A stretch of DNA of 64,000 nucleotides from Acidobacteriota bacterium (GTDB lineage: Bacteria > Acidobacteriota > Terriglobia > Bryobacterales > UBA6623): NCBI GenBank assembly GCA_016125275.1, contig WGMB01000003.1, forward strand, positions 744,001-808,000, in the 5' to 3' direction. A program made the translations under genes and the position numbers. Numbering within the stretch: the stretch's first letter is position 1; every line of letters starts with the position of its first letter. Below the pieces are notes generated by a model. The model ran no database searches, was not told the origin of the DNA, and saw nothing but the letters and a program-made list of their open reading frames with translations. Shown piece after piece: positions 16,524 to 58,751 of this stretch.

Positions 16524-16542
16524 CCCCTCCAACACTCCCCCC

Positions 16543-21485: not shown

Positions 21486-23749
21486 GACTGCTCTGGCTGC
21501 TGTTGACCGCGCTGCTGCTGACGCCCGTCGCCGTCCAGGCCCAGGCGCGGCGCCACATCGTGGTGATCCTCGACACCTCCAAGTCGATGATCAAGAACGA
21601 TCAGAAGCGGCTGGCAACGCTCTCTACCGCCATGCTCTTCGACCTGGCGCGGCCCGACCTAGCCTCCGGCGACACCTTCGAGGTCATCCCGTTCCAGTCC
21701 GGCGGCCAGCAGTGGACCGATTCGAGCGAGCCCTGCGAGGATCGCGCCGGCGCGGTCATCCCGGCCATCCGCGGCTCCTCCAGCGCCGCCGCCGGGGCGG
21801 ACCTGGCCGACAAGCTCCGCCGCGCCCCTTACGACGCCAACTGGACCTACTTCTACCCTCCCCTGTGCACCGCCGTAAAGCGCCTGGAGGGCCGCGAGGG
21901 CCAGAAAGTGATCGTGGTGGTGACCGACGGCAAGAGCGACCGCAGCGACCTGGACCAGAGCCTGATCCGGCAAAAGCTCGTGCCCAAGATGCTCGACCAG
22001 AGCATTCAGCTCCAGGTGCTGGCCTTCGGCCGGGCCGAGGGAGCCGCGGCGTCGGCTTTCTTCCAGCCGATCGTCAACTCCGGCGGGGCCAGCCTGGGCC
22101 AGGTGTTCGAGGACCTCTCCGGCGACCTGTTGCTGGAGAACATGATCGAGATCTTCGGGCGTTGCTGCGCCTATACCTCCGAGATCGTGCGCGGCAACCG
22201 GCTCCAGCTTCGCGGCCGAGTGATCCCGGAGAACGCGGCCGTCGTGGCTTTTTGGAAGACCGCCGGGGCGAAGCCGGGCTTCGAGTTCCCGTCCGAGCCC
22301 AAGCCCGGCCTGGCGAACGAGCTGCGCACCGCCTCCGAGGCCGGCGCCAGCTACGCCGTACGCTGGCTGACCGCGCCCATCCCGGAGGCGCCGGTGGAGA
22401 TCCAGCTCGCCTCGCCCAACGCCATCGTGGCGATCCTGCGTCCTCCGGAGATCGAGCTCGAATGGACCGACCTGTCGCCCTTCGAGACCCTCGCCACACA
22501 GAACGATCTGTGCCGAGAGGTCGCCGTCAAGTTGCGCGGCGGCAGCGGCGAGGAGCCGCCCGACGACATCGCCGTCAGCTTCCGCGTCCACGGCCCGGAC
22601 CGCGACAGCGGACGCAACTACGTCAGCGACTGGGAGGCGGCCTCCGGCGGCGCTCTCAACGCCGACCGCGACGCCCGCATCTACCGCGTCTGCCCGGTCT
22701 TCAAGGACACCTTTCCGGAAGGCTCGGACTTCTACCTCGGCCGCCTGGAAGCGCGCGCCATGCGCGGCGAGGTCGTGCTCGAGACGCTGACCGGCGTGGA
22801 GGGCATGGCCGCCACCGTGCGGCCCCTGCTGCGCATTCGCTCGACCCCGTCCAAAGCCGGCGCGGACCGCCAGAGCCTGGGCCGCTCCGAGGTCGGCTGC
22901 GCCAACTTCTCGCTGGTGCTCGAGCCCTGGGAGCGCTTCGAAGCCCGCGCCGGGCGCGGCGAGCCGTTCCGCCTGACCGCCGCCCTCGATCCAAAGCTCG
23001 ATTTGGGCTCCGGGCCGCTGGCCGGCGCCTCGGTCCGCCTGGACGGCCGCCCGGTGCGCTTCAAGGAGCCCGGCCGCGCCCTGTGGGAAGCCCAGCTCGA
23101 CGCCGACCTGATCGCCCGCCTCAAGCGCGCCGCCAACGCCGACGCGCCGGAGTTTCCGCTGAAGGTGTGCGTGGAGACGGGCCGCCCCACCGAGGGCGGG
23201 ACCGCCGGCGTGGAGCTGCACTTCAGCCTCGCCGAGCCGCCGTACCGAGACATGCCGCTCGGCGCCCTGTCCGACCCCTTCACGATCGAGCTGGAGGTCG
23301 CCGCGCCGGACTTCTGGCAGCGCTACTGGTCGCTGCTGACGCTGTTGCTGCTGCTCCTGCTGCTGGCGCTGCTGGCCTGGTATACGCGCTACCGCCTGAC
23401 GTTGCCGCCGGACTTCCGGATGGCCCCGGCGGGCGCTCCCGGCGGCCCGTTTCTGCCGCAGCCGCTGGGAGAGGCGCCGCTGTTCCGTAAGCTGGCCGGG
23501 CTGGACTCCGAGCTGCCGTTCGAGACGCCCGGCAGCCCCGCTCCGCTGGGCTGGGTGCGGCCCCTGGGCCGGGATCTCTACGCCTTCCGCCCGCCGCAGG
23601 GCGCCCACGGGCTGCAGCAAGAGGACGGCGGCGGCTGGAAGGATGCGCCGACCGACGGAGAGACCTATACCATCGAGGCGCGCCGCAGCTATCGCTACCA
23701 AGGCCCCGGCGGTGAGATGCGCACCTTCCGCGCCGAATTCGAGCAATGA
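21482..23749 (+). CDS. VWA-domain type I membrane protein 2
   Basis: A 755-residue protein with a signal peptide (LLWLLLTALLLTPVAVQA). The VWA domain begins at once, with MIDAS DTSKS at residues 31-35 and the later VIVVVTDGKSDRSDLD. Long beta-rich modules follow up to a very Leu-rich transmembrane helix near residue 617 (LLTLLLLLLLLALLAWY). The cytoplasmic tail of about 130 residues is longer in its proximal part and less similar to the tails of the other three VWA proteins (GWVRPLGRDLYAFRPP, SYRYQGPGGEMRTF). It is the most divergent member of the set. It is coupled on both sides by 4-bp ATGA overlaps. Role inferred as part of the membrane-spanning VWA assembly. Confidence 0.82.
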   Translation: MRLLWLLLTALLLTPVAVQAQARRHIVVILDTSKSMIKNDQKRLATLSTAMLFDLARPDLASGDTFEVIPFQSGGQQWTDSSEPCEDRAGAVIPAIRGSSSAAAGADLADKLRRAPYDANWTYFYPPLCTAVKRLEGREGQKVIVVVTDGKSDRSDLDQSLIRQKLVPKMLDQSIQLQVLAFGRAEGAAASAFFQPIVNSGGASLGQVFEDLSGDLLLENMIEIFGRCCAYTSEIVRGNRLQLRGRVIPENAAVVAFWKTAGAKPGFEFPSEPKPGLANELRTASEAGASYAVRWLTAPIPEAPVEIQLASPNAIVAILRPPEIELEWTDLSPFETLATQNDLCREVAVKLRGGSGEEPPDDIAVSFRVHGPDRDSGRNYVSDWEAASGGALNADRDARIYRVCPVFKDTFPEGSDFYLGRLEARAMRGEVVLETLTGVEGMAATVRPLLRIRSTPSKAGADRQSLGRSEVGCANFSLVLEPWERFEARAGRGEPFRLTAALDPKLDLGSGPLAGASVRLDGRPVRFKEPGRALWEAQLDADLIARLKRAANADAPEFPLKVCVETGRPTEGGTAGVELHFSLAEPPYRDMPLGALSDPFTIELEVAAPDFWQRYWSLLTLLLLLLLLALLAWYTRYRLTLPPDFRMAPAGAPGGPFLPQPLGEAPLFRKLAGLDSELPFETPGSPAPLGWVRPLGRDLYAFRPPQGAHGLQQEDGGGWKDAPTDGETYTIEARRSYRYQGPGGEMRTFRAEFEQ

Positions 23750-26100
23750 CACCGTCGCGCCCGCTCGTCGCCGCCTTGCTGGGGCTCCTGTCGATCAGCC
23801 CGGCGGCGGCGGAGCGCCGCGTCTCCGTGCTCATTGACACCTCCGGCTCGATGCTCCGCAACGACGCGCCGCTCTACACCGTGCAGCTCGCCAAGATCCT
23901 GGGCGACCTCACCGAGCCCGGCGACCGCTACCAGGTCACCCGCCTGCCGCCCACGGACAGCGAGGTCGACATCTGCGACGCGCCTCCGACCGAGGCCCTG
24001 CGGCTGGCCATGCGCTCGGGCGACTACGCCGGCTTCAAGGCCGCCATTCAAGGCTTCATCGGGCGCTACAACGGCGGCAACAAGTTCGCCGGCTCCATCC
24101 ACACGGCGCTGCAACTGTTGACCTTGGACCCCGCCCAGCAGCGGCTGTTGCTGTTCATCGCCGACTCCGGCGGCCTCAGCGACGAGTGCGAAGGCTCGCT
24201 CACCCGCGAGCTGCAAGCCTTCCGCAACAGCGGCGGCATGGTGGCGGCGGTCAACATCGGCTCCTCCACGGGCGGCTTCGGCGGCAACCCCGCCTTCAAC
24301 TTCACCCGAGCGGCCAGCAACTCCTCGGAGCTCATCGAAGCCGTCGCGGAGGTCTATCAGCGCTTCCTCGGCTCGCGTGAGGCCAAGACGGGCCGGCTCT
24401 CCAGCGGCTCCGTGGAAGTGGAGGTCGGCCCCTACGTCAAGGAGGCATTCCTGGTGGTGGCCGTGGACGGCGAGATCGGCGCCATCCAGCCCGATCCGTC
24501 GAACCCCTCGGCCAAGAACGCCGACCTGAACCTGCGTGGCGGCGGACAAACCGTCGGGCTCGACGGCCGCACGCGCAGCTATCGCATCGTACGGCTCACC
24601 CATCCGCAGGGCGGCCGCTGGCGCTTTCAGGCCGGCTCGGCCTCCGGCGGCTGGATGCTGCTCGAAGAGTCCGCCATCGCCATCCGGCCCCTCGAATCCG
24701 TGACCGCCGGCCCGGAAGCCCTGCTCACCTTCGAGGTCTACGACGAGCGCACCGGTGAGCGCATCGTGGGCGGTTCGCATCCGCCCATTCAGGCCGAGGT
24801 GGAGGTCGACGGCCAACGCCTGGCCTTGCGCGACGATGGGAACGGAGGCGACAAGACCGCCGGAGACGGCGTGCTCACGGCCGTGGCCCGGCTGCCCCAA
24901 ACAGGCCGCCGCACCGTCAGCGCGATGCTCAAGGGAGGCGACCTGGAGCGCAGACTCTCGCTAAGCCTCGACGTGCGCGAGCCCGGCTGGAAGCTCGAGC
25001 CGCAGCTCCCGGCGCGCGCCGAGGTCGGCGACCCTTTGTTGCTGGAGGTGCGCGCCCGCTCCGAAGGCGGCGGCGCGGACAAGCCGGCCTACCTGGACGC
25101 GCGCGTTGCCGGCGGAGCCTCCGTGCAACTGCGCGACGACGGGACCGGCGGCGACCGTACCGCCGGCGACGGCGTGTACAGCGCCTCCTGGACGCCGCCG
25201 GCCGCCGGAGAGGTCGCCATCGTCGTGCAGCCGCCGCCGGGCGTCCGCGGCGAACCGGTCGAACGCAAGCTCGAAGCGCTGGGCAAGCTCAGCTTCAGCG
25301 GCGCTCCACCGGCGGTCAGGCTGGGTCCGGTGGGCAGCGGCGAAGAGGCCGCCGGCAAGATTGACCTCAGCGGCGCCGCGGTGCAAGGCGAAGTGACGCT
25401 CACCGTCGACACCGACCTCGACCTGTCGAACACTGAGCTGCTGATCGAGACCGACGCCGGCTGGACGAACCTGCACGACAACCCATCGGTCCGCCTGCGC
25501 TCCGATGGCCGCCGACAGATCGGGCTCCGCTTGGCCGTCGCCGCCTGCCCCACGGCCTGCGCGCCCGAGCAGGCCCACACGGTGACGCTGCGTGCGCCGC
25601 GCGCCGACGGCTCGGTGGTCGAGATCCGCGCACCGCTGGTGGTGGAAGTCGTCGGCGACCCGTTTCTGAAGTGCTATTGGCCGTGGATCGCCGCCGCCGT
25701 CTCCACGCTGCTCGGCGCCATCGTCGCCTACGGCTACATCTCGCCCTCCCGCTTCGGCGCTCGCGACGGGGTGCAGATCTCGCAGGAGGCGGACTTGAGC
25801 GAGGGCTTCTTCTACCCGTTTCGCGCCCAGCCGGGCTCGGGAGTGGGCTTGTACCGCGACGCACGTCTGTATCTGAGCTCCGACTATCGCCTCAGCGGAC
25901 GCCGCGTAAACGTGCTGGCGAAGCTGCGCGCCGACCGCGGCCGGGTGAAGATCGAGCCGGCGCCGGGACAGAGCCTCTGGCGCGAAACCATCGACGGCGA
26001 TTGGGAGGAATTGCCTCCCGAGGAAACGCAAGCGCGTACCGGCGTCGTCTACCGCAATCATGAGAAGACTCTGTACTTCGAGCTGAGGACCGGAGGATGA
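23746..26100 (+). CDS. VWA-domain type I membrane protein 3
   Basis: A 784-residue protein: signal peptide ending AAAE, VWA domain with DTSGS at residues 31-35 and LLLFIADSGGLSDECEGSL. Two beta-sandwich modules each carry a copy of the DDGxxGDxTAGDG motif (LRDDGNGGDKTAGDGVL and LRDDGTGGDRTAGDGVY). The Cys-flanked transmembrane helix (CYWPWIAAAVSTLLGAIVAY, about residue 643) leads to a cytoplasmic domain with RDARLYLSSDYRLSGRR and a final YFELRTGG. It is most similar to VWA protein 4, and the two probably arose by tandem duplication. The positions around NFTRAASNSSELIEAVAEVY are nearly repeated there. The next gene overlaps it by 4 bp. Confidence 0.83.
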   Translation: MTPSRPLVAALLGLLSISPAAAERRVSVLIDTSGSMLRNDAPLYTVQLAKILGDLTEPGDRYQVTRLPPTDSEVDICDAPPTEALRLAMRSGDYAGFKAAIQGFIGRYNGGNKFAGSIHTALQLLTLDPAQQRLLLFIADSGGLSDECEGSLTRELQAFRNSGGMVAAVNIGSSTGGFGGNPAFNFTRAASNSSELIEAVAEVYQRFLGSREAKTGRLSSGSVEVEVGPYVKEAFLVVAVDGEIGAIQPDPSNPSAKNADLNLRGGGQTVGLDGRTRSYRIVRLTHPQGGRWRFQAGSASGGWMLLEESAIAIRPLESVTAGPEALLTFEVYDERTGERIVGGSHPPIQAEVEVDGQRLALRDDGNGGDKTAGDGVLTAVARLPQTGRRTVSAMLKGGDLERRLSLSLDVREPGWKLEPQLPARAEVGDPLLLEVRARSEGGGADKPAYLDARVAGGASVQLRDDGTGGDRTAGDGVYSASWTPPAAGEVAIVVQPPPGVRGEPVERKLEALGKLSFSGAPPAVRLGPVGSGEEAAGKIDLSGAAVQGEVTLTVDTDLDLSNTELLIETDAGWTNLHDNPSVRLRSDGRRQIGLRLAVAACPTACAPEQAHTVTLRAPRADGSVVEIRAPLVVEVVGDPFLKCYWPWIAAAVSTLLGAIVAYGYISPSRFGARDGVQISQEADLSEGFFYPFRAQPGSGVGLYRDARLYLSSDYRLSGRRVNVLAKLRADRGRVKIEPAPGQSLWRETIDGDWEELPPEETQARTGVVYRNHEKTLYFELRTGG

Positions 26101-28424
26101 TGCGCGTTCGACAGCCCTGGATCGCTTCACTGGCGCTGCTGCTGGCCGCTCTGCCCGCGGCGGCGCAGCGCCGGATCGCCGTGGTGGTGGACACGTCGAT
26201 CTCCATGAAGGAGAACGATCCGCAGGACTACGCCGAACAGATCTCGAAGATCGTGGGAGACATCGCCGGGGACGGCGACCGCTACGCCGTCTTCCGCATG
26301 ATGAACGAGCAGCAGGCGGCCGAAGCGACCCGAGCGGCCGAGCAAGGCGCCATGGTCGAAGCGGCCCGGCGCATCGGGATTCGCATTCCCCTGCCCGGCG
26401 GCTATCGCCCCTTCAACGAAGACTGCTCGGCGCCGCCCGACCCGAGCGTCCAGCTCGAGCTGCGCGGCCCGCGCGAGAGCTTCAAGAGCCAGCTCTCCCG
26501 CTTTCTGATCTACAACAACTACACCCACTTCGCGCGGGCACTGCACACGGCGTTTCAGTTTCTGGGCAACTCCGGGCCGCGGCTGCTGCTGATCGTCGCC
26601 GACGCCGGCGGGCTGGGCGAGTGCGAGGTCCCGCTGATGCGCGGCCTCAACGATCTGCGCGCCAGCGGCGCGATGATCGCCGCCGTCAACCTCGGCGAGG
26701 ACATGGGCTCCTTCCGCGGCGACCCGCCGTTCAATTTCACGCGCGCCACCCGCAACGCTTTTGATCTGGCGACGGCCGTGGGCGAGGTCTACCAGCGCTT
26801 TCTGGGAGCCAAGAACGTCAAGAACGGCCCCCTGCGCGGCGACGTGGTGGTGGAGATCGACGACTTCGTCAAGGAAGCCTATCTGGTGGTGGCGGCCGAC
26901 GGCCCGCTGCCCGCTCTGCGCGAAGGCGGCGGCAATCCGGGCGCGGACGAGCTCGTCTTGGACTACCGTGGCGGCGGCAGCACCGTCGGGCTCGACGGCG
27001 TGAACCGCGGCTACCGCATCGTCAAGTTCACAAACCCTCGCGCCGGACGCTGGACCTTCCAGACGGGCTCGCGTACCGGCGGCGGCTGGATCCTCATCCA
27101 GGAGCGGGCGGTGGGCCTCCGCATGCTCACCACCACGGCTCCCAGCGGCGAGGAGACGATGCTGACGGTCGAGCCCTACGACGAGCGCACGGGCCTGGCG
27201 ATCAATGACCCCGGCCGACTCGCGGGTCTGTCGGTGGAGGCCAACGTCAACGGCCGCCCGGTCCGCTTCACGCCCGACGCTTCCGGGCGCTACTCGGCCC
27301 GCGTGAGCTTTCCCAGCGCCGGACGCCAGAACGTGGAGGCGCGGCTGCGCGGCGGCGACATCGACCGCACCGTCAACATGACCGTGGACGTGACGGACAC
27401 GCCCCCGCCGCCGCCCGCCCCGGAACCCGTCCCGGCGCCGGAGATCGTGCCGCCGACCGCGCCCGAACCGCTCCCGGAACCCGAGCCGTCCGCGCCGTCC
27501 GTCACGCCCTCATCGCCCGCGCCGTCCACGCCCAGCCCGGCGGCGCCTCCGAGCGAGCCGGCCACGCCGCCGCCTCCTCCTCCGCCCCCGCCCGGTGCGG
27601 CCCAGGAGGATTTCGATTTCGGCCCGCCGCCGAGCCCCATCAAGCTCGGCCCGATGACCAGCGAGAGCTCCGCCTCCGGCAGCCTCGACCTATCGGGCGT
27701 GCGGGTCTCCGCGCCGACCGACGTGGAGCTGACCGCCGACTTCGACCGCTCGCGCGCGCAGCTCGAAGTCGAGGTCAACGGCCAGTGGATGCCGCTGGGC
27801 GAGGACCCTGTGCGGCTGACGCTCCAACCGGGCGGCGCGCAGCGCTACCGTGTGCAGATCCTCACCGAGAAGTGCCCCGCCGCCTGCGCGCCGGACGAGC
27901 CCCATGAGGTCGCCATCCAGGCCCGCCGCGTGGACGGCTCGGTCCTTCGCACGTCGGCTCCTCTGTCGGTCAGCATCGAGCCCGACCCCTGGCTGGACTG
28001 CTACTGGCAGTGGCTGGCCGGCGCCGCCGGCATTCTGCTGGGCGGAATCATCGCCTACGGCTTCATCTCGCCGTCGCGCTTCCCGGCCCGCATCGGCGTG
28101 CAGTTCGCCGCCGAGGAAGACGTCAGCGAGGGCGTCTTCTACGAGATTCGGCGCGCCAGTGGGGCCCACGCCGGCTTCTACCGCGACGCCAGAGTTTACA
28201 TCCAGCCCGACTACCGCCTCACCGGCAAGAAGGCCGGCTCGCTGGCGCGGCTGCGGGCCGACTCCGGCCGCATCCAGATCAAGGAAGACATCCACGGCAG
28301 CCTGGAACGCCTGGCCGTCGACGGAACCTGGGAGCTGCTGCCCGACCGGGAGTTCCCCGTACCCACCGGCGTTCTGTTCCGGACCGTCGACCGCAGCCTG
28401 TATTTCGACCTCCGTACGGGATAA
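26097..28424 (+). CDS. VWA-domain type I membrane protein 4
   Basis: A 775-residue protein: signal peptide (SLALLLAALPAAAQ), VWA domain with DTSIS at residues 32-36 and LLLIVADAGGLGECEVPL. One beta module follows, then a proline-rich linker of about 75 residues (27400-27605, including a run of nine prolines). A Cys-flanked transmembrane helix (CYWQWLAGAAGILLGGIIAY, about residue 634) precedes the conserved cytoplasmic domain (RDARVYIQPDYRLTGKK to YFDLRTG). The linker replaces one of the two DDG-type modules found in VWA protein 3 and could span the periplasm. GGAGG lies before two consecutive ATG codons. This gene ends the overlapping VWA quartet; an 80-bp gap precedes the tubulin-like gene. 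Confidence 0.83.
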   Translation: MMRVRQPWIASLALLLAALPAAAQRRIAVVVDTSISMKENDPQDYAEQISKIVGDIAGDGDRYAVFRMMNEQQAAEATRAAEQGAMVEAARRIGIRIPLPGGYRPFNEDCSAPPDPSVQLELRGPRESFKSQLSRFLIYNNYTHFARALHTAFQFLGNSGPRLLLIVADAGGLGECEVPLMRGLNDLRASGAMIAAVNLGEDMGSFRGDPPFNFTRATRNAFDLATAVGEVYQRFLGAKNVKNGPLRGDVVVEIDDFVKEAYLVVAADGPLPALREGGGNPGADELVLDYRGGGSTVGLDGVNRGYRIVKFTNPRAGRWTFQTGSRTGGGWILIQERAVGLRMLTTTAPSGEETMLTVEPYDERTGLAINDPGRLAGLSVEANVNGRPVRFTPDASGRYSARVSFPSAGRQNVEARLRGGDIDRTVNMTVDVTDTPPPPPAPEPVPAPEIVPPTAPEPLPEPEPSAPSVTPSSPAPSTPSPAAPPSEPATPPPPPPPPPGAAQEDFDFGPPPSPIKLGPMTSESSASGSLDLSGVRVSAPTDVELTADFDRSRAQLEVEVNGQWMPLGEDPVRLTLQPGGAQRYRVQILTEKCPAACAPDEPHEVAIQARRVDGSVLRTSAPLSVSIEPDPWLDCYWQWLAGAAGILLGGIIAYGFISPSRFPARIGVQFAAEEDVSEGVFYEIRRASGAHAGFYRDARVYIQPDYRLTGKKAGSLARLRADSGRIQIKEDIHGSLERLAVDGTWELLPDREFPVPTGVLFRTVDRSLYFDLRTG

Positions 28425-28504: not shown

Positions 28505-31500
28505 ATGGCGGATGAGTCGAGTCTGAAGCTCCAAGGGAAAGTCCCGCCGCGAATGTTCGTGGGCCTCGGCGGAACCGGCTCCAAGATCGTCGACCGCATG
28601 GCTTCGCGGGCCAAGCAGCTCCCTTTTTGGGATGAAGCCTTACGCCCGCTGACGAGCTTTGTGTCGATCGACACCGACATCAACGACCAGAACCAGCTCG
28701 AGCACGTCCCGCGCGGCAACAAGATCACCATCGGCGCCTTCGACAAGGCGCAAGCCGTGGAGAACTACCGCAAGTCCGGCGACCAGCAGGCTCTGCAATG
28801 GCTGGACAAGGCCTACAAGCCGCGGCCGGGCGGGGGCTTCGGCGCCGGCCAGATCCGCGTCGAGTCCCGGCTGGGGTTCCACTACTCCAGCCCGCAGATC
28901 CGCGAGCGCTTCACGCAGCTGTTGCGCCACCTGCTGGAAGCCGACAACACGTTCCGGCTGTCCGACCCGCCCACGATCTACGTCTATCTGTACGCCACGC
29001 TAGCGGGCGGCACCGGCTCAGGCAGCTTTCTGGCGACCGCCTACCTGTTGCAGGACGTGATCCGCAGCCTGCACTGGCGGCCGCGCGTGATCGGTAATTT
29101 CCTGCTCTCCACCACGCTGCTCAACAAGGTCGCGCCGGACCTGCACCAGGACATCCACGCCAACACCTACGCCGCGCTCAAGGAGCTGGAGCACCTCACC
29201 AAGATCCAGTACCCGGACGTCCAGAAGGACATGCCCAACGGCGAGGTCTTCGTCTACTGGAACAACACCTCCACCTCGGAGCTGCCACGCGTCAAGCAGG
29301 CTCCGTTCTACTATTCGTCGATCTATGACCTGCCGCCGCAGATGGCCGTCAGCGACATCGTCTCGGTCGCCGCCGACGCCACTTTCTGGCAAGCTTTTAC
29401 GCCCATCATCGGCCGCATCCTCAGCGAGGCCGACAACTACGAGAAGCATCTGACCGAGCTGACGCGCTTTCCCGGCGAGCTCAAGAACGTCGGCCGCGGC
29501 TACTCGAAGAACTTCGGCGCCTTCGGACTGGCCACGCTGGTGCTGCCGGCGGAAGACCTGCTCGAATACTCCGCGCTGCGCTTCGCCGCCGAGGCCCTGC
29601 GCCGCCAGATCACCTTCGGCGTCAGCCCCGACGCCACCGACGACCGCGCCCGTGCGCTGGAGCGCCTGCAGGTCAACTACGAAGATCCAAAGTTCCGCAA
29701 CATGGCGGAAGAGGACCGCTACCGCGAGATCAACAAGGCCTTCGTGCTCTCCGTGCAGGCCATGGCGCAGCAGGACGAGCGCGACGAGCTGACCAACGGC
29801 TACTGGCAGCGTTTGGTGGAGGACGTCGACCTGGGCCGCAAGACCGGCGGCGTGGACGACAACGGCGAGCCCCGCCGCGCCGACACCTTGATCGTCAAGG
29901 TCCGCGAGGCGCTCGCCAAACAGCGCGAGCCCATCCTCAACCGCATCTCGATCAAGCAGCGCACGTTCGTCTTCCACCGCGAAGGCGTCAATCAGTACGT
30001 GCAGCAGGTCAGCGGCTTGGTGGAGGACGTGCGCAAGGCCTCGGTCCTGATCGACGAAGGCCTGGAAGCCGTCCGCAACTCGGCCGCCGAGGGCGACGTC
30101 GTCCGCGACCTCAAGCTCGACCCGATGCAGGAGCGCTACCTCGTGTTGCGCTTGCTGCATCTGCTCGAGACCGAGATCATGCCCGAGGTGAAGGAGCGCT
30201 ACGAGAAGACCGAGCGCGCCAGCCTCGAGAACGCCAAGGTCAAGGAGCGGCTGGAGACGGAGTTCCTCGAGAACCTGCGGCAGGCCGCCGACGCCAAGAA
30301 GTGGCTCTTCCGGCACGACGAAGAGACCTTCCTGCGCACTCGCGACGAGGCCCAGGACAACTTCCAGAAGATCGCCCAGGCGCAGAAGCGCTTCTTCGAC
30401 GCCAAGCTCGAGATGGCGCAGTACAAGGAGCTGCTCGAGTACCTGCACAAGCGCGCCCACTTGTTCGCGCGGCTCGCCACGCGGATGAACGACCTGGTGC
30501 AGGACCTCGAATCCGAGGCCGAGTCGCTGCGTCGCGGCGCCAACCCCATCATTCCGCGCATGGCTCTGACGGTCGAGATCTTCGAGACGCTCGACAAGCC
30601 CCGCCGCCGGCTGTGGCCTGAGGTCTACCGGGCGCTGTTCGTGGACGCCGGCCGCGACATGACGACCTACGACCGCAACGCTCTGTCGCAAGCGATCGCC
30701 GAAGAGCTCAAGCCGGTCAAGGACCCCGGCAGCGGCCGCTTCATGGAGAAGTCCGAACGGCAAGCCGTGGTCGACCTGCGTCAGGCTCTGGTGAAGCTCG
30801 GTCGCGACCGGCTGCGGCGGTCGATCTACGGCGACGAAGACGTCAAGGGCCTCACGATCGAGACCGGCCTGGAGCTCGAAGCGCGTCTGCTGACGCCGGG
30901 CCGCGCCGGCGAGCCGCCCACCAAGGCCGAGCTCGACCACTACGTCGACAAGAAGCTGGTGGCCTTCTCGCAGTTGGCCGGCGTGACGGCGCGGTTGCGC
31001 TCGGAAGAGCTGGATACGCTCGATGACGGCGTCAAGGTCGCTCAGACGCGTCACTACGTGCTCAAGGCCGGCTCGGTGTCTCCGGACTTCGACCAGCGCC
31101 TGCGCCGCATCCTGGAGCGCGGCGGCCGCGAGCCGCAGCACTCGGACTGGTCCAGCCCGCACCTGGCGATCGTGCACGACATGGAGTTGCCGATCCCGTT
31201 GTACTACTTCAGCGCCGTGGTGGGCGAGATCGAGGCGGCCTACGAGCGCGCCGCCGCCAACGAGCGCCGCTCCTACCACCTGCACACCGACTATCACTGG
31301 GAAGCGGCCCTGCCCAACCTAAACCCGCGCAAGAGCGAGCTGAGCGCCTCCTGGGCCTTGGACCGGCTGGTCGACGGCCTGCTCACTCAGGTCGTCTTCA
31401 AGACCGCCCAGGGACTGTTCTGGCGCAGAGGCTCCGGCGAGGACGAGCCGCTGGGCGAGAACCTCGCCGCTGCGCTCTACACGTTGGGGGAATACCACCT

Positions 31501-31831
31501 CGACAAGGATCTCGGCCCGCGCTTCGCCGCCATGATCGACGCCGCCAAGGAGTCCTTCGGCGCCGACGAGCTGCGCCGACGCGCCGAGATGCTCAGCGCT
31601 TGGGCGGGCAAGCTGCTCGAAGACATTGCGATGGCGGCTCGCCGGGGCGAAAACAGCCGCCAGGAAGAGCTCGATCAGCCGGTGCTGCGCGTCATCCAGT
31701 CGATGGTCAAGGGCCTGCTCGACGCCAAGCCGACCCGCCCGTTCACCAAGGGCTCGGCGGGGCCTGCGTCGCGCGTGCTGGCCAGCGAGCTGAGCTTCGA
31801 CGCGCCGGCCGACGACAACCCGGTGCAATAG
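28505..31831 (+). CDS. Tubulin/FtsZ-superfamily protein (Tubulin_2 / FtsZl-type)
   Basis: An 1108-residue cytoplasmic protein. Residues 18-31 (FVGLGGTGSKIVDR) form the N-terminal nucleotide-binding strand-loop. The tubulin signature GGTGSG lies at about residues 167-172 (ATLAGGTGSGSFLATAYLL). SFVSIDTDIN resembles the acidic loop that contacts the nucleotide. These mark the Tubulin_2/FtsZl branch, whose members sit beside VWA and GTPase genes and are predicted to remodel membranes. The remaining 700 residues are highly charged and helical, including ERLETEFLENLRQAADAKK, probably coiled-coil arms absent from FtsZ. GGAGG sits 6 nt before the ATG. Expected activity: GTP-dependent polymerisation; this is family inference and filament formation is unproven. 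Confidence 0.82.
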   Translation: MADESSLKLQGKVPPRMFVGLGGTGSKIVDRMASRAKQLPFWDEALRPLTSFVSIDTDINDQNQLEHVPRGNKITIGAFDKAQAVENYRKSGDQQALQWLDKAYKPRPGGGFGAGQIRVESRLGFHYSSPQIRERFTQLLRHLLEADNTFRLSDPPTIYVYLYATLAGGTGSGSFLATAYLLQDVIRSLHWRPRVIGNFLLSTTLLNKVAPDLHQDIHANTYAALKELEHLTKIQYPDVQKDMPNGEVFVYWNNTSTSELPRVKQAPFYYSSIYDLPPQMAVSDIVSVAADATFWQAFTPIIGRILSEADNYEKHLTELTRFPGELKNVGRGYSKNFGAFGLATLVLPAEDLLEYSALRFAAEALRRQITFGVSPDATDDRARALERLQVNYEDPKFRNMAEEDRYREINKAFVLSVQAMAQQDERDELTNGYWQRLVEDVDLGRKTGGVDDNGEPRRADTLIVKVREALAKQREPILNRISIKQRTFVFHREGVNQYVQQVSGLVEDVRKASVLIDEGLEAVRNSAAEGDVVRDLKLDPMQERYLVLRLLHLLETEIMPEVKERYEKTERASLENAKVKERLETEFLENLRQAADAKKWLFRHDEETFLRTRDEAQDNFQKIAQAQKRFFDAKLEMAQYKELLEYLHKRAHLFARLATRMNDLVQDLESEAESLRRGANPIIPRMALTVEIFETLDKPRRRLWPEVYRALFVDAGRDMTTYDRNALSQAIAEELKPVKDPGSGRFMEKSERQAVVDLRQALVKLGRDRLRRSIYGDEDVKGLTIETGLELEARLLTPGRAGEPPTKAELDHYVDKKLVAFSQLAGVTARLRSEELDTLDDGVKVAQTRHYVLKAGSVSPDFDQRLRRILERGGREPQHSDWSSPHLAIVHDMELPIPLYYFSAVVGEIEAAYERAAANERRSYHLHTDYHWEAALPNLNPRKSELSASWALDRLVDGLLTQVVFKTAQGLFWRRGSGEDEPLGENLAAALYTLGEYHLDKDLGPRFAAMIDAAKESFGADELRRRAEMLSAWAGKLLEDIAMAARRGENSRQEELDQPVLRVIQSMVKGLLDAKPTRPFTKGSAGPASRVLASELSFDAPADDNPVQ

Positions 31832-31850: not shown

Positions 31851-34247
31851 ATGAAGCGGCATCCCACCATCCTCGTCGGCTACGGGGCCTACGGACGCAC
31901 CGTGCTGGAACGGTTGCTCCGTGGGGCCGCCGCGCGCGGCGTGCTCGCCTGGGAAGAGCGCGACGACCCCTCGTCGCTGCAACGCCGGCGGCTGCAATCG
32001 CTGGCCCTGCTGTGGGCGCCCGACCCGCTCGAAGGCGGCGCCACCGACGAAGCTCCCCCTGAGGTGATGCTCGACCTCTATCGCCAAATCGAGGAGATCG
32101 ACATCCCCGACGGCGACGCCGGACGCGCCCTGGCCCACGCCGCCGCGGCCGCCAAGCGCCGGCTGCACGCCGCCGACGCCGCGAACGCCGCCGAGCGCAG
32201 CCACGGCCTCGACGTCATCGTGGTCGCCCACGCCAGCCGCGCCGAGTCCGTGGGCCGCTTGCAGGAGATGCTCGAGCCCATGCTGCACGAGCTCTCGCAA
32301 GGCCGCTCGATGACGCGCGTCAAGGAAGGCGAGGACTACCTCAACTTCCTGCAAATCCTCGATTTCGAGGAGTACTGGCGCAAGGCTCCCGAGAACAACC
32401 GCCTACGCGAAGCCCTCGCCCACGCCTTCCAGCGCAACGAGCAGGCGGCGCAGCGCCACGAGCCCGCCTTCGGCCGCATCTACCTATTCGACAGCGAGAC
32501 CCAGGGCGGCCATCGCAACCGCGACGCCCGCATCGACGAGGCCTCGCTGTTCCTGGAGTTCCTGCTGTTCGAGGGGCAGCGCCACGGAGCCGGCGAGCGG
32601 CTGTATCAGCGCGAGTCCGACGGCGTGCCGCCGGCCGCCACCGTCGGCATCCGCAGCATCCAGCTCAGCTTCGGGCTGGTGGCTCGGCTGAGCGCCGCCA
32701 CCTATTCGCGGCTGTTCCTGGACTACCTCATCAAGCGCGGCGAGAGCCCGCGACGCGACGCATTGCGCGAGCACTTCGCCGACTACCTGCCCGAGCGCAT
32801 CGAGCAGACCCTGGGGCTGACGCGCATCGACGCCATGCGGCAGAAGGGTCTCGACGAGATCGAGGGCAAGCTCTTGCAGCTCGACCCGACCGACCCGGAT
32901 TGGCCCGAGCAGGTGCGCCGCGGCTGGCAGCAGGCGATTTGGGGCTTGAAGGATCAGATCTCGCAAGAAGCAGGCCACGAGTCCCGCGACATCGCCGACC
33001 AGCGCCTCGGCAAGCTGCGGCAGGACCTCGAAGCGGCCGTGCTGCGCGAGCTCGACGCCGTGCGCGACCCGCTCACCGTCGGCCAACTGCTCGACCAGAT
33101 CGAACGCCTCGAGCCCTTGCTGCGCTACGAGCCGGCCGCGAGCGCCGAAGCGCCTCCGGAGCAGCAGGACCCCTTCGTGGGCATCGCCGCACGCCACCAG
33201 GACTACCTGCGCTTTCAGGCCGGACGCGTCAAGACCGAGCAGCTCGCCGACAAGTGGTGGCCGCTGCTGGCCGTGGTCTTCGCGCTGGCCGCCGCGCCGT
33301 TCGCCCTGGACGCCCTCGCGGAGTTCTTCGTCCTGGAAGGCGCGGCCGCGCAGGTCCTGCCGTTCGTGGTGACGGCGGCGTTCTGGCTGCTGGGCTGGCA
33401 GCTCGGCCGGCAAGTCTTCCAGCGCTCGATCGAGCAGCGCTCCCAGCGCGCCGACGAGTTCTACCGTCACGCCCAGCGCGGCCGTCTGACTGACTGCGTG
33501 CGCGCCGCCACCCGCTCTTCGGCCTTGCAGCAGGAGTTGCGCGCCCACTGCGACAACGTGGCCGCCTCGCTGCGGATGCGCGTGCTGGGCGACGTGCTCG
33601 GCGAGCTGCTGCGCATCAAGGACCTGCTGAGCCGGCGCGCCCGCGAGATGCACTGGCTGACCGATCAGCTCGGCAAGTTCCTCGACATGAACGGCGTGGA
33701 CCCGCGCCTGCCGCGCCCGCAGTTCTATGACCGCCAAGGGCCCAACACCGCCCTGAGCCAGCTCGAACGCAACGAAGACCTGGCGGCGGTCTTCCGCCAG
33801 CGCACCGCCGAGCCGACGCATTTCGGCGAACGGCAGACCAAGCTCAATCTCTTCAAGGACTGGGCTTCGCGCTACTGCGAAGAGTTCCTGCGGCCTTTGG
33901 CGTTTCTCGACAAGCTCAGTGCGGACTACCGCGACCCGATCCACTCCGGCAACGGCGAAGGGCCTTCGGTGCCCGAGCAGGAGCGGGCCCGCTCGCTGGG
34001 CGAGGCTGTCCGCCGGAACTCCAAGCTGCCCCTGGCCTTCCAGCTCCTCAAGGCCGATCAGCTCCCCGATTCGACCCGCCTGAGCGTCTTTCCGGACGCC
34101 TGGTGGCGCCTGCCGGCGATCTCCAACGAGCTCAGCGAGGCCGGCTACGCAGACCCCGTGAAGGCCGTCGGCGCCGAGCGCGCCTACTTCCTCGAGATGC
34201 AGCTCGGCGTGCCCACCCGCCTGCTCGAGCTGGAGGAGGGCCGATGA
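31851..34247 (+). CDS. Membrane-associated protein with degenerate tubulin-like N terminus
   Basis: A 798-residue protein not matched to a named family. Its start (HPTILVGYGAYGRTVLERLL) parallels the preceding gene (PRMFVGLGGTGSKIVDRMAS), and a later strand-loop (LDVIVVAHASRAESVGRLQEM) sits where that protein has its GGTGSG signature. It may thus be a paralogue that lost GTP binding. Residues about 465-520 contain two hydrophobic segments (WWPLLAVVFALAAAPFALDA; VLPFVVTAAFWLLGWQLG), which anchor it to the inner membrane as a hairpin. Charged helices flank them. It lies 19 bp after the tubulin-like gene and overlaps the next gene by 4 bp. Inferred role: membrane tether for the tubulin-like protein. 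Confidence 0.7.
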   Translation: MKRHPTILVGYGAYGRTVLERLLRGAAARGVLAWEERDDPSSLQRRRLQSLALLWAPDPLEGGATDEAPPEVMLDLYRQIEEIDIPDGDAGRALAHAAAAAKRRLHAADAANAAERSHGLDVIVVAHASRAESVGRLQEMLEPMLHELSQGRSMTRVKEGEDYLNFLQILDFEEYWRKAPENNRLREALAHAFQRNEQAAQRHEPAFGRIYLFDSETQGGHRNRDARIDEASLFLEFLLFEGQRHGAGERLYQRESDGVPPAATVGIRSIQLSFGLVARLSAATYSRLFLDYLIKRGESPRRDALREHFADYLPERIEQTLGLTRIDAMRQKGLDEIEGKLLQLDPTDPDWPEQVRRGWQQAIWGLKDQISQEAGHESRDIADQRLGKLRQDLEAAVLRELDAVRDPLTVGQLLDQIERLEPLLRYEPAASAEAPPEQQDPFVGIAARHQDYLRFQAGRVKTEQLADKWWPLLAVVFALAAAPFALDALAEFFVLEGAAAQVLPFVVTAAFWLLGWQLGRQVFQRSIEQRSQRADEFYRHAQRGRLTDCVRAATRSSALQQELRAHCDNVAASLRMRVLGDVLGELLRIKDLLSRRAREMHWLTDQLGKFLDMNGVDPRLPRPQFYDRQGPNTALSQLERNEDLAAVFRQRTAEPTHFGERQTKLNLFKDWASRYCEEFLRPLAFLDKLSADYRDPIHSGNGEGPSVPEQERARSLGEAVRRNSKLPLAFQLLKADQLPDSTRLSVFPDAWWRLPAISNELSEAGYADPVKAVGAERAYFLEMQLGVPTRLLELEEGR

Positions 34248-37171
34248 GCTTCGAGATCAACAGCCTGCTGCCGGCCATCGTCCTGATCCTGGGACTCGTC
34301 GCGGCGCTCGTCGCCGAGCTGGCCGCCCGTGCCAAGGCCGACGGCGGAGACACGGGAACCTACTGGAGCCGCATCGCCGCCCGCACCTGCGTGGCGATCG
34401 CCGCGCCGTTGCTGGCGCTGTACCTCATCGTCACGGCTTTCCCGGACGCGCGTGCTTCCATCCCGGGCGTCGACCGCCAGGAGTACTGGCTCTTCGCGCC
34501 GCTGCTGCCCTGGAGCTTGCTGCTGGTTCTGGGACTGTTCCAGGCCGCGCCGGCCGCCGCCGGCCGTTGGCTGGCGGGCTCCATCGGCTACCAGATCGAC
34601 CGGCGGGGCTGGGCGGCCCTGTGCGCGCTGCCGCTGGCGGGACTGCTGGCGATGGGCTGGAGCCGTCTCGGCAACGCCCCCTCGTCGTACCCGGCCGCCA
34701 ACTGGACGACGGCCGCCCTGCTCTCGATCACGCTGCTGGCCGTCGCCCGCAGCAAGCCGGCAGCGGCCGCGGCGGCCGCCGCCGAGGCGCCCGCCGAGCA
34801 GGCCAAGCCCGGGCCCTCTCTGCCGGACTGGCCCGAGGCCATGCGCGCCGGAGGCGTCGCGCTGGCGGATCTGTTCTCGCGGCCGGCGTCGCTGCTCAAG
34901 CCGCGCCCGACGGCCTCCGACCGGCTCATCGCGGAGTGGCGCGAACGCATCGCCGCCAAGGGCTCGCTGGGCGTCTCCGACACGTTGCTCGAAGCCGTCC
35001 ACGAGCTGACGCGTCCGCAGGCCGTGGCTCCCGGCGCGGAGCGCAATCGGCTGATCCTGGCCCCGGACAACTGCGGCCAGCATGAGGTAGTGGGGCTGGC
35101 CGCCGCCGACCTCTCGCGCAAGCTGGGCGAGGCGACGCTCATCATTACGCCCTGGCCGCGGCCGGACCTCACCGAGCGCATCAAGCGCTGGGCCGCCCCT
35201 CCGGAGGGCTCCACGGAGCTGCCCGCGCGCGTCGCCGCGCCCCGCTCCTGGAAGGACTTGCAGGAAGCCGGCGACGCCGACGTCTGGATCGTGGACGCCG
35301 AGACTCTCTCGGACCGCCTGCTGCCGCGGCTGCGCTACGAGGCCAACAAGCCGAACCTGCAACAGCGCAACCTGGTGTCGCGCATCGGCATGGTCGTGTG
35401 GTGGGACGTGCACGCCTACACCGGCGCGCTGGCGGCGAACATCTGGGCGATCTCGCGGCGGCTGCACCGCATCATCCGCGCCCACGGCCGCCCCGGCGTC
35501 CGCGCTCTGGCGCTGGCGCGCGGAGCGGCCTACGGCAACGCCGAGCTCTCGCCCTTCCTGCAACGTGTGCTGCCCTACCGCTTCACCCGCGACCAGGAGA
35601 CGCGCATCGAAACCGCCTACGTGCGCCCCTTGCGGGCCTACCGCATCGAGCACGACCGCGAGCTGATGCGCACGCGCGCCGCCGACGTGCTGCCCGAGCG
35701 CGCCAAGCGCCTGCCGCTGACCGCCGCCCTGGTCTCCACGCAGTCGGGCTGGACCACCCGGCTCGACGCCCCGCCGCACATCACCGCCATCGAGCGCGAG
35801 AGCCTGGAGAAGGCCCACCTGGGCGACGACGCCATCGTCGCCGACCGGCTGACCACCGAACGCCCCGAAGCCGGCGCCAGCATCCTGCCGATCACCGAGG
35901 CCTCCGCGCTGTCCCTGCCGGAGATGCTTTGCCAGGGTGCGCGCTCCACCCCGGCCGGCCCGCCGCACTGTGTCGGCATCCTGCCGCCGGACAACCCCTA
36001 CCTGGAATACCTGCTGCAAGCCTTTGACCGCGACGACTCCCCGTGGCGGTCCTCGCGGCTGCTGATTCGCGCCGAGGGCAACCCGAACATCGTCCGCCGC
36101 CACCTGCTGCATGCCCTCTATGAGGTGGAGGAGACCCGCCGCGGCCTGGAGACCTCCCTGGGCTGGAACCGGGACATCCTGCTGGCGACGCTCCGCGAGC
36201 TCGCCGGAACCGGTCAGCTCATCCGCCGCGAGGTGCTTTTCCTGGACGACGAGGGCCTGCTGCAAGCCGACTGGCTGTGCCGCAACGACCAGCCGCCCGA
36301 CTCCCGGCCGCGCCCCCTACGCACCGTCAGCTCGGAGCTGATCGAAGTCCGTAACCTCGCCGCCGGCGACGTCGAGGAGGCCGTACCGCTGGAGGTCGAC
36401 CCGGACCGCGCCGGCATCGAGGCCTACCCCGGCAAGGTCTTCGTCACCGACGGCCGCCGCTACCGCATCGACGAGTGGCAGTCCCACCAGACCGTCAAGG
36501 ACCGCCGCCAGATCGCCTGCGAGCAGACCGACCAGTACCTGGTCACCTGGCGCCAGCGCTACCCGCAGATCCAGCGGCTGCAGAAGGTCGGCGACGAGAT
36601 CACGCTCGAAGGGTTGGGCGTGATCACGCACCGCTTCGTGGCCGACGCCGTCTACCGCGAGCATCTCGACGGCTGGCTCGAACGCGACGGGTCGGGACGG
36701 CTCGACCTGCGCAAGCTCGAACGCCCGGTGCGAACGTCGTTCACCACCCGGACTCTCACGCTGAGCTTCGACCCCGCCCCGGACGAGAAGGCCCTGGACG
36801 CCATGGCCGCCGCTTTCCGCCTGATGCTGCCCGTGCACCTCGGCGCCGACGACGACAGCCTGGAGGTGGTGGCCATCCACGGCCTGCGCGCCGGGCGCGA
36901 CTACGTGCACGGCGTCGCCATCGTGGATCTCTACCCCGGCGGCATCGGCTTGGTGGAAGCCATTGAAGCCGACAACGCGCTGCTGCAAAATATCTTCAAG
37001 TGGACCCACCAGTGGCTGCGCGAGGTGGCGCGCGAGGGCTTGGCCGGCGCCGATCGCCTGTCGGCCTCGCCGCTGGTGCGCGCCGCCGAGGGCGACGCGA
37101 CCCTCGATTTCGCCGCCGCCGAGGAGCTGCTGGCCCGGCTGAGTAACGCCGCCCACGCCGCAAGACGATGA
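34244..37171 (+). CDS. Multi-pass membrane protein fused to a degenerate MrfA/Hrq1-like (DUF1998) helicase
   Basis: A 975-residue protein. About five hydrophobic helices occupy the first 175 residues. The rest parallels MrfA/YprA-type superfamily 2 helicases in order: LILAPDNCGQHEV (about 270) where Walker A should be, VWIVDAETLSDRLLPRLR for the motif Ib region, VVWWDVHAYTGALAANI plus SRRLHRI (about 385) for the DEVHTYRG-type motif II, YPGKVFVTDGRRYRI (about 727), and LYPGGIGLVEAI (about 896) for DUF1998. The Walker lysine, the DE pair and the four C-terminal cysteines are all lost, so ATPase or helicase activity is not expected. The ATG at 34244 overlaps the previous gene by 4 bp; an in-frame ATG at 34103 lies inside that gene. 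Role unknown, probably a scaffold. Confidence 0.72.
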   Translation: MSFEINSLLPAIVLILGLVAALVAELAARAKADGGDTGTYWSRIAARTCVAIAAPLLALYLIVTAFPDARASIPGVDRQEYWLFAPLLPWSLLLVLGLFQAAPAAAGRWLAGSIGYQIDRRGWAALCALPLAGLLAMGWSRLGNAPSSYPAANWTTAALLSITLLAVARSKPAAAAAAAAEAPAEQAKPGPSLPDWPEAMRAGGVALADLFSRPASLLKPRPTASDRLIAEWRERIAAKGSLGVSDTLLEAVHELTRPQAVAPGAERNRLILAPDNCGQHEVVGLAAADLSRKLGEATLIITPWPRPDLTERIKRWAAPPEGSTELPARVAAPRSWKDLQEAGDADVWIVDAETLSDRLLPRLRYEANKPNLQQRNLVSRIGMVVWWDVHAYTGALAANIWAISRRLHRIIRAHGRPGVRALALARGAAYGNAELSPFLQRVLPYRFTRDQETRIETAYVRPLRAYRIEHDRELMRTRAADVLPERAKRLPLTAALVSTQSGWTTRLDAPPHITAIERESLEKAHLGDDAIVADRLTTERPEAGASILPITEASALSLPEMLCQGARSTPAGPPHCVGILPPDNPYLEYLLQAFDRDDSPWRSSRLLIRAEGNPNIVRRHLLHALYEVEETRRGLETSLGWNRDILLATLRELAGTGQLIRREVLFLDDEGLLQADWLCRNDQPPDSRPRPLRTVSSELIEVRNLAAGDVEEAVPLEVDPDRAGIEAYPGKVFVTDGRRYRIDEWQSHQTVKDRRQIACEQTDQYLVTWRQRYPQIQRLQKVGDEITLEGLGVITHRFVADAVYREHLDGWLERDGSGRLDLRKLERPVRTSFTTRTLTLSFDPAPDEKALDAMAAAFRLMLPVHLGADDDSLEVVAIHGLRAGRDYVHGVAIVDLYPGGIGLVEAIEADNALLQNIFKWTHQWLREVAREGLAGADRLSASPLVRAAEGDATLDFAAAEELLARLSNAAHAARR

Positions 37172-39632: not shown

Positions 39633-40478
39633 ATGGAAGAAGCCCCCCAGCAGGATATGGAGCAGCAAGAGCCCTCGGTCGCGCCCCCGGCCGAAGCCGA
39701 GGAGGACGGCCGCGTCGCCCTGTGGGGTCCGTCGGCCTCCGGCAAGACGGCCTTCCTGGCGCTGCTCTACCTGCGCTCCACCGAGTTCAAGAAAGCCGGC
39801 TGGACGGTCTACCTCGGCGATCAGCAGACCAAGGAGTGGTTGCAGGACATGCGGCAGACGATCGACGTCCGCAACCGCTTCCCCAAAGCCACCTCCGCCG
39901 CCATCGACCGCATTCGGCTCTCCTACGTGTTCGTCAGCCAGCGGAGCGGCCACCGCTTCGTGCTCGACACCGACGACCGCCCGGGCCTGCGCTACGAGGA
40001 GATGGACGCCGACGTGCTCCAGTCCCTGCTGCGCGCCAAAGGCCGGCTGTTCTTCTTCGATCACACCGGCGAACCCAAGCGCCGCCGGGACCAGATCCTG
40101 CGCGCCTTCGAGGATCTGCACAGCGCCGGCCGGCCCTACCGCGAGACCGATCTCGACCCCAACCCCATCGCCATCTGCCTGACCAAGGCGGACATGCTGA
40201 TTCACTCGCCCGAGGACCTGCGCCGCGCCCGCGAGGAGCCGCAGGAGTTCGTGCTCGAACGCATGGAGCCGGAGCTGCTGAGCTGGGCCGAGAACTACTT
40301 CACCAAGATCCGCCTCTTCCCCGTCTCGTCGGTCGGCGTGGAACTGCTGCACGGCGTGGTGCGGCCGGCCATCTTCTTCGACGAGCGGCTGGAGGCCCGC
40401 TGGGCGAGGGTCTGCCAGCCGCTCAATCTGTTCGAACCTTTCGAGTGGATCTTCCGCTCCATGGACAACGATGCCTGA
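39633..40478 (+). CDS. Small P-loop GTPase of the tubulin/VWA system
   Basis: A 281-residue protein. An acidic, Gln/Pro-rich N-terminal tail of about 25 residues is followed by Walker A GPSASGKT (residues 32-39), a DxxG-like switch in LDTDDRPGLRYEE (about 112-118) and a G4-type base-specificity motif TKAD (ICLTKADML, about residue 187). The last 60 residues (WAENYFTKIRLFPVSSVGVELL) fit the late strand-helix of Ras-like GTPases, with PVSS resembling the G5 SAK loop. It corresponds to the distinct GTPase reported near FtsZl genes. No membrane helix is seen. It overlaps the next gene by 8 bp, so the two products probably interact. GTP preference rests on TKAD and is likely. Confidence 0.82.
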   Translation: MEEAPQQDMEQQEPSVAPPAEAEEDGRVALWGPSASGKTAFLALLYLRSTEFKKAGWTVYLGDQQTKEWLQDMRQTIDVRNRFPKATSAAIDRIRLSYVFVSQRSGHRFVLDTDDRPGLRYEEMDADVLQSLLRAKGRLFFFDHTGEPKRRRDQILRAFEDLHSAGRPYRETDLDPNPIAICLTKADMLIHSPEDLRRAREEPQEFVLERMEPELLSWAENYFTKIRLFPVSSVGVELLHGVVRPAIFFDERLEARWARVCQPLNLFEPFEWIFRSMDNDA

Positions 40479-57820: not shown

Positions 57821-57836
57821 CGGCTGGTTCCTCCCT

Positions 57837-58751
57837 CTAGCGACGCCAGATCACCACGCCGGTGGCCATCTGAATGACCGCTTCCGAACCGCGGTTGAGC
57901 GACTTCTTGAGCTTCGAGTCCGGCAAGTACACGATGTCGTTGGCTTCGAGCGTCGGGTCGGGGTCCTTGCCCTCCAGAATCCGGTCCAGCCGGATCGGCA
58001 TCTCGCTCTCCTGGCCGTCCCGCCGCCGGATCACCCGCGCCCGCTTGCGGGCCGCCACGCCTTCGTCGCCCTCGGCCAGCGAGATCGCCCGCAGCACCGT
58101 CATGGGCTCCTGGTCCTTGATCGGGAAGCCCCCGGGCCGGCCCACCGCGCCCAGCACGTAGACGATGCCCGCCTTGCCCACCTGGATCGAGTCGTGCGGC
58201 TCGATGTAGGGGTCGTTCTGCGGCGTCGTCTCGCCCGACAGCAACGCGCCGACGGAGACCTGGAGCTCGCCCGCCCCTTCGCCGTCTCCGCCGCGCCCGA
58301 TGCGGATCGTGTCGCCGACCTCTTCGCTCAGCCCTCCGGCCAGCGCCAACACGTCGCTGAGCCGGCGCCGGCCCAGCAACTGGTAGACGCCCGGCTCGCG
58401 CACCGCCCCTAGCACGCTCACCGGTTGGCTGCGAAAGTCAACCACGGCGACCGACACCTGCGGGTCGCGCAGGTAGCCGTCGGCATAGCCTGCGCTGATC
58501 TTGGTCTCGATCTCCGGCGGCGTCAGCCCCTGCACTTCGACCGGACCGATCAGCGGCAGCCGGATACGGCCGTCGGCGGCGACCGCGGCCGAGCGGCTCA
58601 GCTCCTCGACCTCGAAGACGGCGATCTCCAGCACGTCTCCGGGACCGACCCGGTACGCCGCATCGCGGCCTCCCGGTTGCAAAGGGGATTCAGTACGCTC
58701 GGCCGCCGACACGGCGGCCAGCGCAAGCGCGCACAGCAGGACTTTCTTCAT
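57837..58751 (-). CDS. Wza-like polysaccharide export protein
   Basis: A 304-residue exported protein with a signal peptide (KKVLLCALALAAVSAA). The poly-export domain starts at YRVGPGDVLEIAVFE with the following GRIRLPLIGPVEVQGLTP and DPQVSVAVVDFRSQPVSVLG. Two SLBB-type modules follow (EPGVYQLLGRRRLSDVLALAG; GKAGIVYVLGAVGRPGGFP). No lipobox Cys is seen. Related proteins form the outer-membrane channel of Wzy-type capsule or exopolysaccharide export. The ATG of MKKVLLC was chosen, since it gives a proper signal peptide; the longer frame to 58790 does not. It heads the export operon; the 146 bp upstream contain no gene. Confidence 0.88.
   Translation of the reverse strand: MKKVLLCALALAAVSAAERTESPLQPGGRDAAYRVGPGDVLEIAVFEVEELSRSAAVAADGRIRLPLIGPVEVQGLTPPEIETKISAGYADGYLRDPQVSVAVVDFRSQPVSVLGAVREPGVYQLLGRRRLSDVLALAGGLSEEVGDTIRIGRGGDGEGAGELQVSVGALLSGETTPQNDPYIEPHDSIQVGKAGIVYVLGAVGRPGGFPIKDQEPMTVLRAISLAEGDEGVAARKRARVIRRRDGQESEMPIRLDRILEGKDPDPTLEANDIVYLPDSKLKKSLNRGSEAVIQMATGVVIWRR

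Follow-up and report, generated by a model that had tools for sequence, protein, structure and literature searches.

In a 64,000-nucleotide stretch of contig WGMB01000003.1 of an Acidobacteriota bacterium (assembly GCA_016125275.1, positions 744,001 to 808,000 of the forward strand; this whole stretch is called the window), the gene at 28505-31831 encodes a protein of the FtsZl1 family, and the gene directly behind it encodes a divergent relative that we call the pseudo-tubulin. The explanation that we favour, and that we hold to be somewhat probable, is a two-component tubulin scaffold that lies on the inner side of the cytoplasmic membrane and in which FtsZl1 is the partner that binds GTP. 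A more detailed proposal, which we put forward more tentatively, is that FtsZl1 and the membrane-anchored, GTP-loop-less pseudo-tubulin assemble into one filament, in which the membrane anchor is itself a subunit and both tubulin folds are split by long helical arms. The two genes, with the parts read from the sequences and predicted models, are:

28505..31831, forward strand: FtsZl1/Tubulin_2 protein, 1108 amino acids (aa); GTPase core at about 12-372, insertion at about 373-842, end of the C-terminal domain at about 845-900, extra helical part to about 1076.
31851..34247, forward strand: pseudo-tubulin, 798 aa, divergent FtsZl1 paralogue; T1-like loop, no T4 loop, transmembrane-like segments at about 470-515.

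A preliminary description of this DNA, made from the sequence, had given the first of these genes as a large tubulin-superfamily protein. The open reading frame has exactly the coordinates and length stated there and is open throughout, without an internal stop. The description based superfamily membership on two nucleotide loops within the first 175 residues, and this was borne out. Residues 18-365 match the Tubulin_2 family (PF13809) with an E-value of 1.8e-41 and 143 bits, compared with a curated cut-off of 27, and the T1-like loop GLGGTG and the T4 loop AGGTGSG are found at residues 20-25 and 167-173. In a 49-member family alignment G20, G22, G23, G25 and the stretch G168-G169-T170-G171-S172-G173 are invariant. 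The canonical FtsZ/tubulin family PF00091 gave 15.8 bits, below its cut-off of 33. PF13809 has been tied to the FtsZl1 family (PMC9871819). Makarova and Koonin described this family in 2010 as proteins of about 1050 aa with an FtsZ-like N-terminus bearing the G-box GGGTG(S/T)G, a long coiled coil and a helical C-terminus, whose operon partners are vWA proteins, GTPases, kinases and OmpA proteins, kinases and OmpA proteins being frequent and not universal (PMC2875224). The statement that the protein is unusually large holds in relation to FtsZ and TubZ but not within its own family. Because the 74 Tubulin_2 proteins compared are 900-1580 aa long with a median of 1084 aa, a length of 1108 aa is normal for this family. 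A separate canonical FtsZ is encoded elsewhere in the same genome, which leaves FtsZl1 free for another job.

The fold of FtsZl1 was predicted with AlphaFold (AF2) from the 49-member alignment, resulting in a model with a predicted local distance difference test score (pLDDT) of 86.9 and a predicted template-modelling score (pTM) of 0.77. Its top Foldseek matches were CetZ, FtsZ and TubZ. Using VIA-align, a Z-score of 24.1 was obtained with CetZ (3zid; 324 of 342 residues aligned) and of 20.6 with B. subtilis FtsZ (273 of 306 residues aligned, model range 13-898). Lack of the tubulin GTPase domain in a predicted structure had been named in the preliminary description as the observation that would speak against it; judged by the CetZ match, the model has this domain. 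The description had also expected a charged, mostly helical extension in the form of long C-terminal arms. Its composition was confirmed, with D, E, K and R making up 33% of residues 376-1108 compared with 21% of residues 1-375, and beyond residue 375 the model is mainly helix. A big helical addition is thus present, but the model argues for a different placement. In the FtsZ alignments (Z about 20), FtsZ residues 11-316 are covered by model residues 13 to about 900. Since coverage of FtsZ extends to its residue 316 and the range in the model stops near 898, the last strands of the tubulin C-terminal domain must be those that follow the long helices. From the secondary structure of the model, not from its coordinates, we tentatively assigned S7 to residues 337-346 and H9 to 349-370, followed by an insertion of about 470 residues and then by S8 (846-852), H10 (860-871), S9 (876-880) and S10 (887-897). 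The long helices at about 373-842 therefore appear to be an insertion of about 470 aa inside the tubulin fold rather than a C-terminal arm. Modelled helices at 496-528, 540-572, 577-596 and 604-676 lie in this insertion, and a further one spans 987-1073. Both the GTPase core and the tubulin C-terminal domain are predicted to be present, giving a complete fold.

A phmmer search with FtsZl1 against solved structures gave no match, and the alignment profile gave weak helical-bundle matches and CetZ at an E-value of 0.63. As these sequence searches were weak or empty, the fold of FtsZl1 rests on the model. The authors of the 2010 study could not detect an equivalent of the FtsZ C-terminal domain in FtsZl1 and doubted that filaments are formed (PMC2875224). 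A split C-terminal domain, as seen in the model, bears on this doubt over a full fold and filament formation.

The 798-aa pseudo-tubulin has no Pfam match of note. A family of 33 pseudo-tubulins was assembled from genes directly 3′ of FtsZl1 in other loci, chosen by their similar start. Conservation of T1 in this family is no evidence, because the selection picked a T1-like pattern. Comparison of the 33-member family with FtsZl1 by hhalign yielded a probability of 93.5, an E-value of 2.4e-7 (the value for that one comparison) and a score of 76 over 276 aligned columns, which span the entire tubulin domain. When the first 40 residues including T1 were left out, the score was 53 and the E-value 8e-5. 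Controls with reversed, 20 column-shuffled and two unrelated families scored 9-20. An earlier comparison between a 12-member downstream family and FtsZl1 had been suggestive (E-value 0.007). The hidden Markov model of the pseudo-tubulin family matches FtsZl1 proteins directly (7.8e-5, 9.5e-5 and 6e-4), and in a global alignment the two families are colinear across their length. The AF2 model of the pseudo-tubulin (pLDDT 82.3) shows the strand and helix order of FtsZl1, here too with helices inserted ahead of the final strands. The best 50 VIA matches of this model are tubulins throughout, with a top Z of 18.7. Because the profile comparison and the protein's own model agree, we regard the 798-aa protein as a second tubulin-fold protein, without the GTP loop and with a predicted membrane anchor. 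T4 was found in none of the 33 family members, unrelated residues taking its place. Internal transmembrane-like segments were seen by hydropathy in 31 of the 33 pseudo-tubulins and lie inside the helical insertion; 19 of these proteins have, by our count, two segments about 25-50 residues apart. Two membrane passes would bring the chain back to the cytoplasm, as completing the tubulin fold requires. Hydropathy detected no transmembrane-like segment in FtsZl1, and for this reason we place the best-supported membrane link putatively in the neighbouring pseudo-tubulin and not in FtsZl1.

The pseudo-tubulin gene adjoins FtsZl1 in 40 of the 49 close loci that have more than 1.2 kb of downstream sequence (38 scored by an automatic rule; L056 and L094 were added by eye), a proportion that is not an unbiased census, the loci having been fetched by similarity to three sequences. 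Loci not used in building the pseudo-tubulin model, for example L056, L060, L069, L075 and L082, are among them, and the adjacency of the two genes is maintained in three phyla. These data bear on the published proposal, made from gene context, that FtsZl1 functions in membrane remodelling or vesicle formation (PMC2875224). If FtsZl1 did so alone, the downstream gene would be no working partner, as loci without a recognisable adjoining pseudo-tubulin (such as L047, L048 and L051) might suggest. We consider this unlikely, since the tight multi-phylum adjacency and the common plan of the two tubulins suggest joint work and FtsZl1 itself carries no membrane-like segment.

Several observations weigh against the two-component scaffold. 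The catalytic T7 sequence of FtsZ, NxDxxD, is not visible in FtsZl1; the invariant D310-N311 is the best candidate for a replacement and may or may not act as one. Foldseek alone, applied to the pseudo-tubulin model, reached an E-value of 0.008 only, and the transmembrane calls are from hydropathy only. No recognisable pseudo-tubulin adjoins FtsZl1 in 9 of the 49 eligible close loci or in any of the 13 eligible distant loci (L105-L122), which means that the pair is not required in every FtsZl1 system.

Lamprocystis purpurea has two FtsZl1 copies, one in a full operon (L049) and one without recognisable partners nearby (L051). Downstream of position 6504 in L105 (Anaerolineae), the gene after FtsZl1 has a tubulin-like T1, ALIVGIGDTGIAVLSRL, which suggests a two-tubulin pair.

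Both tubulin genes belong to an operon of about 10 genes at 19269-42024 on the forward strand, which overlap or nearly touch. Four vWA genes precede FtsZl1, and the genes for the 798-aa, 975-aa and 816-aa proteins, the GTPase and the 517-aa protein follow it. Metal-ion-dependent adhesion site motifs are abbreviated as MIDAS below:

19269..21485, forward strand: vWA protein 1, 738 aa; PF00092 at 1e-5; MIDAS DTSRS; transmembrane-like segments on the N- and C-side.
21482..23749, forward strand: vWA protein 2, 755 aa; PF13519 at 6e-4, below cut-off; MIDAS DTSKS; signal-like N-terminus, transmembrane-like segment at about 613-637.
23746..26100, forward strand: vWA protein 3, 784 aa; NF041940 at 2e-21; MIDAS DTSGS; choice-of-anchor X repeats, transmembrane-like segment at about 647-666.
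26097..28424, forward strand: vWA protein 4, 775 aa; PF13519 at 4e-4, below cut-off; MIDAS DTSIS; transmembrane-like segment at about 639-659.
34244..37171, forward strand: degenerate relative of MrfA/DECH-type superfamily 2 (SF2) helicases, 975 aa from the ATG at 34244; MZB-like C-terminus.
37168..39618, forward strand: 816-aa operon member without family match; 4-bp overlap with the preceding gene.
39633..40478, forward strand: DO-GTPase2-like GTPase, 281 aa; PF19993 at 3.9e-6; P-loop GPSASGKT and TKAD intact.
40471..42024, forward strand: conserved 517-aa operon member with one transmembrane-like segment; adjoins the GTPase gene in 7 other loci.

The combination of vWA and P-loop GTPase genes that marks FtsZl1 operons is therefore found here, with four vWA genes and the DO-GTPase2-like gene. 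The MIDAS motif DxSxS is intact in all four vWA proteins, and vWA protein 4 is a paralogue of vWA protein 3. Since each has one hydrophobic segment near residue 600-660 and two of them also have an N-terminal one, the vWA part probably lies in the periplasm, with a short tail reaching into the cytoplasm. The GTPase reaches 27.1 bits with PF19993, barely over the cut-off of 27, in agreement with a DO-GTPase. For the 816-aa protein no Pfam or NCBIfam match worth naming was found; relatives have space for a gene of similar size at its place, without detectable sequence similarity. Judged by its sequence, the product of 34244-37171 is a membrane-anchored, degenerate helicase, with transmembrane-like segments within its N-terminal residues 1-106. 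The MZB domain was detected in 12 of 12 homologues (best E-value 5.2e-11) and weakly in the window copy (0.047), and TIGR03817 matches 8 of the 12 (best 1.4e-9). None of the 12 has GK[ST], the sequence with the Walker A lysine, and motif II of the window copy reads WDVH where the family has DExH. A four-cysteine C-terminal motif is kept in some relatives (e.g. CPCRSELGCERC in L046) and is lost in the window copy.

Within the two-component scaffold, we suppose that FtsZl1 and the pseudo-tubulin would pair up or follow each other alternately, head to tail, in the manner of other tubulin pairs. FtsZl1 would be the sole nucleotide site of the pair and the pseudo-tubulin its built-in membrane anchor, and the long helical arms might serve to bundle filaments or to hold them at a distance from the membrane. 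Such a scaffold could organise or gate the periplasm-facing vWA proteins with their short cytoplasmic tails. Further subunits, with a regulatory or scaffold role, may be the DO-GTPase2-like protein and the dead helicase bound to the membrane.

The order of the FtsZl1, 798-aa, 975-aa, GTPase, 517-aa and vWA genes is kept in other loci, as seen by tblastn. Same-order records come from Methylococcaceae, Chromatiaceae, Bryobacterales and Thermoanaerobaculia, the placement of the GTPase and 517-aa genes differing in L053, and the operon is kept in Acidobacteriota and Gammaproteobacteria. In 8 other loci the DO-GTPase2-like gene is conserved at a distance of 7.4-8.0 kb downstream of FtsZl1, and the helicase relative follows the pseudo-tubulin in Myxococcota also. 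FtsZl1 relatives were found with an alignment of three sequences; a single-protein scan of genome contigs detected no FtsZl1 relative. Among full-length relatives, the closest, with identities of about 46-53%, are from Acidobacteriota, Chromatiaceae and Methylococcaceae, and these branch together with a support of 99 in a quick tree. Transfer of FtsZl1 between phyla is likely, although not proved by the tree. Any match to the close FtsZl1 form was present in 2 of 61 near genomes, the window's own included, and a Tubulin_2 match in 19 of 297 genomes of the phylum.

This patchy distribution would also fit a regulated conflict (defence or suicide) system with a DO-GTPase switch, a tubulin-like assembly and vWA proteins, comparable to the GTPase-centric GAP1-N2 systems described by Kaur et al. 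in 2020 (PMC7159879). Like those systems, the operon combines a DO-GTPase2 match with a tubulin that has a helical C-terminal part and with vWA membrane proteins, and the Firmicutes version there has two tubulin genes. Their constant partner GAP1 was not recognised: the 517-aa protein, tried as a candidate, gave no match at E≤0.5, nor did three homologues, and a scan of the window protein with a limit of 0.1 was likewise empty. Furthermore, the DO-GTPase2-like protein has no cysteine-rich N-terminus, and the second tubulin differs by its missing GTP loop and its transmembrane-like segments. The tubulin theme of those systems is limited to Firmicutes and Actinobacteria according to PMC7159879. 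A phage-defence reading of the operon was rejected, as PADLOC gave no match in the operon or in the scanned flanking genes. A conflict system is thus an improbable explanation.

Another possibility is a motility- or pilus-related machine in which surface structures would be placed or driven by the tubulin scaffold. In Synechocystis, phototaxis is impaired when the Tubulin_2 gene sll0445 is interrupted, and its product Sll0445 is found in association with pilus proteins (PMC9880817). The cyanobacterial relatives, however, are only about 24% identical over the N-terminal domain, and a vWA/pseudo-tubulin operon was not detectable in them by similarity. The part of the window that was scanned showed no pilus gene. 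We therefore give this explanation little credence.

Upstream of the operon and divergent from it are two kinase-like genes on the reverse strand, at 14994-16535 and 16543-19182, matching PF00069 at 8.3e-7 and 4e-4, below cut-off. Each product has one transmembrane-like segment, and that of 16543-19182 has a zinc-ribbon-like N-terminus. They are not kept beside close relatives and were left out of the operon. No OmpA match was found in the genes scanned. Elsewhere in the window, 1682-4936 (reverse strand) encodes a large outer-membrane beta-barrel protein with a carboxypeptidase-like N-terminal domain (PF25183, 7.9e-241), and 55511-63015 is a polysaccharide-export-like region with a Wzz/tyrosine-kinase-like chain-length protein and a nucleotidyl transferase.

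Compared with known tubulins, FtsZl1 shares the fold (Z 20-24) and the T1 and T4 loops of CetZ, FtsZ and TubZ, but differs by its insertion, an extra C-terminal domain, an identity of about 13% and the lack of the usual T7. The third gene shares with MrfA/DECH helicases (TIGR03817) the MZB domain, present in its family, and a segment that aligns with the region of motif II, whereas the Walker A lysine and, in the window copy, DExH are lost and a membrane anchor is added. The FtsZl1 protein itself has been known in kind since 2010. Length, the N-terminal FtsZ-like domain with GGTGSG, the long coiled-coil or helical region and the operon with vWA and GTPase genes all agree with PMC2875224, and Plesiocystis pacifica, a species of its alignment, was recovered among our loci (L078). 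Beyond the split C-terminal domain of our model, the difference lies in the T4-less tubulin-fold neighbour, since the text of that paper, its supplementary family list aside, names no paralogous tubulin partner. In the literature covered, to which the 2010 supplementary tables and most subscription journals did not belong, no prior description of the split domain, the pseudo-tubulin partner or the dead helicase was found. A reviewer's objection printed with PMC2875224 asked by what route an FtsZ-like protein in the cytoplasm could act together with vWA proteins in the periplasm, and the pseudo-tubulin is a candidate for the membrane link that would answer it. If this holds true, a tubulin pair with a nucleotide-dead, membrane-bound partner would be a new cytoskeletal design.

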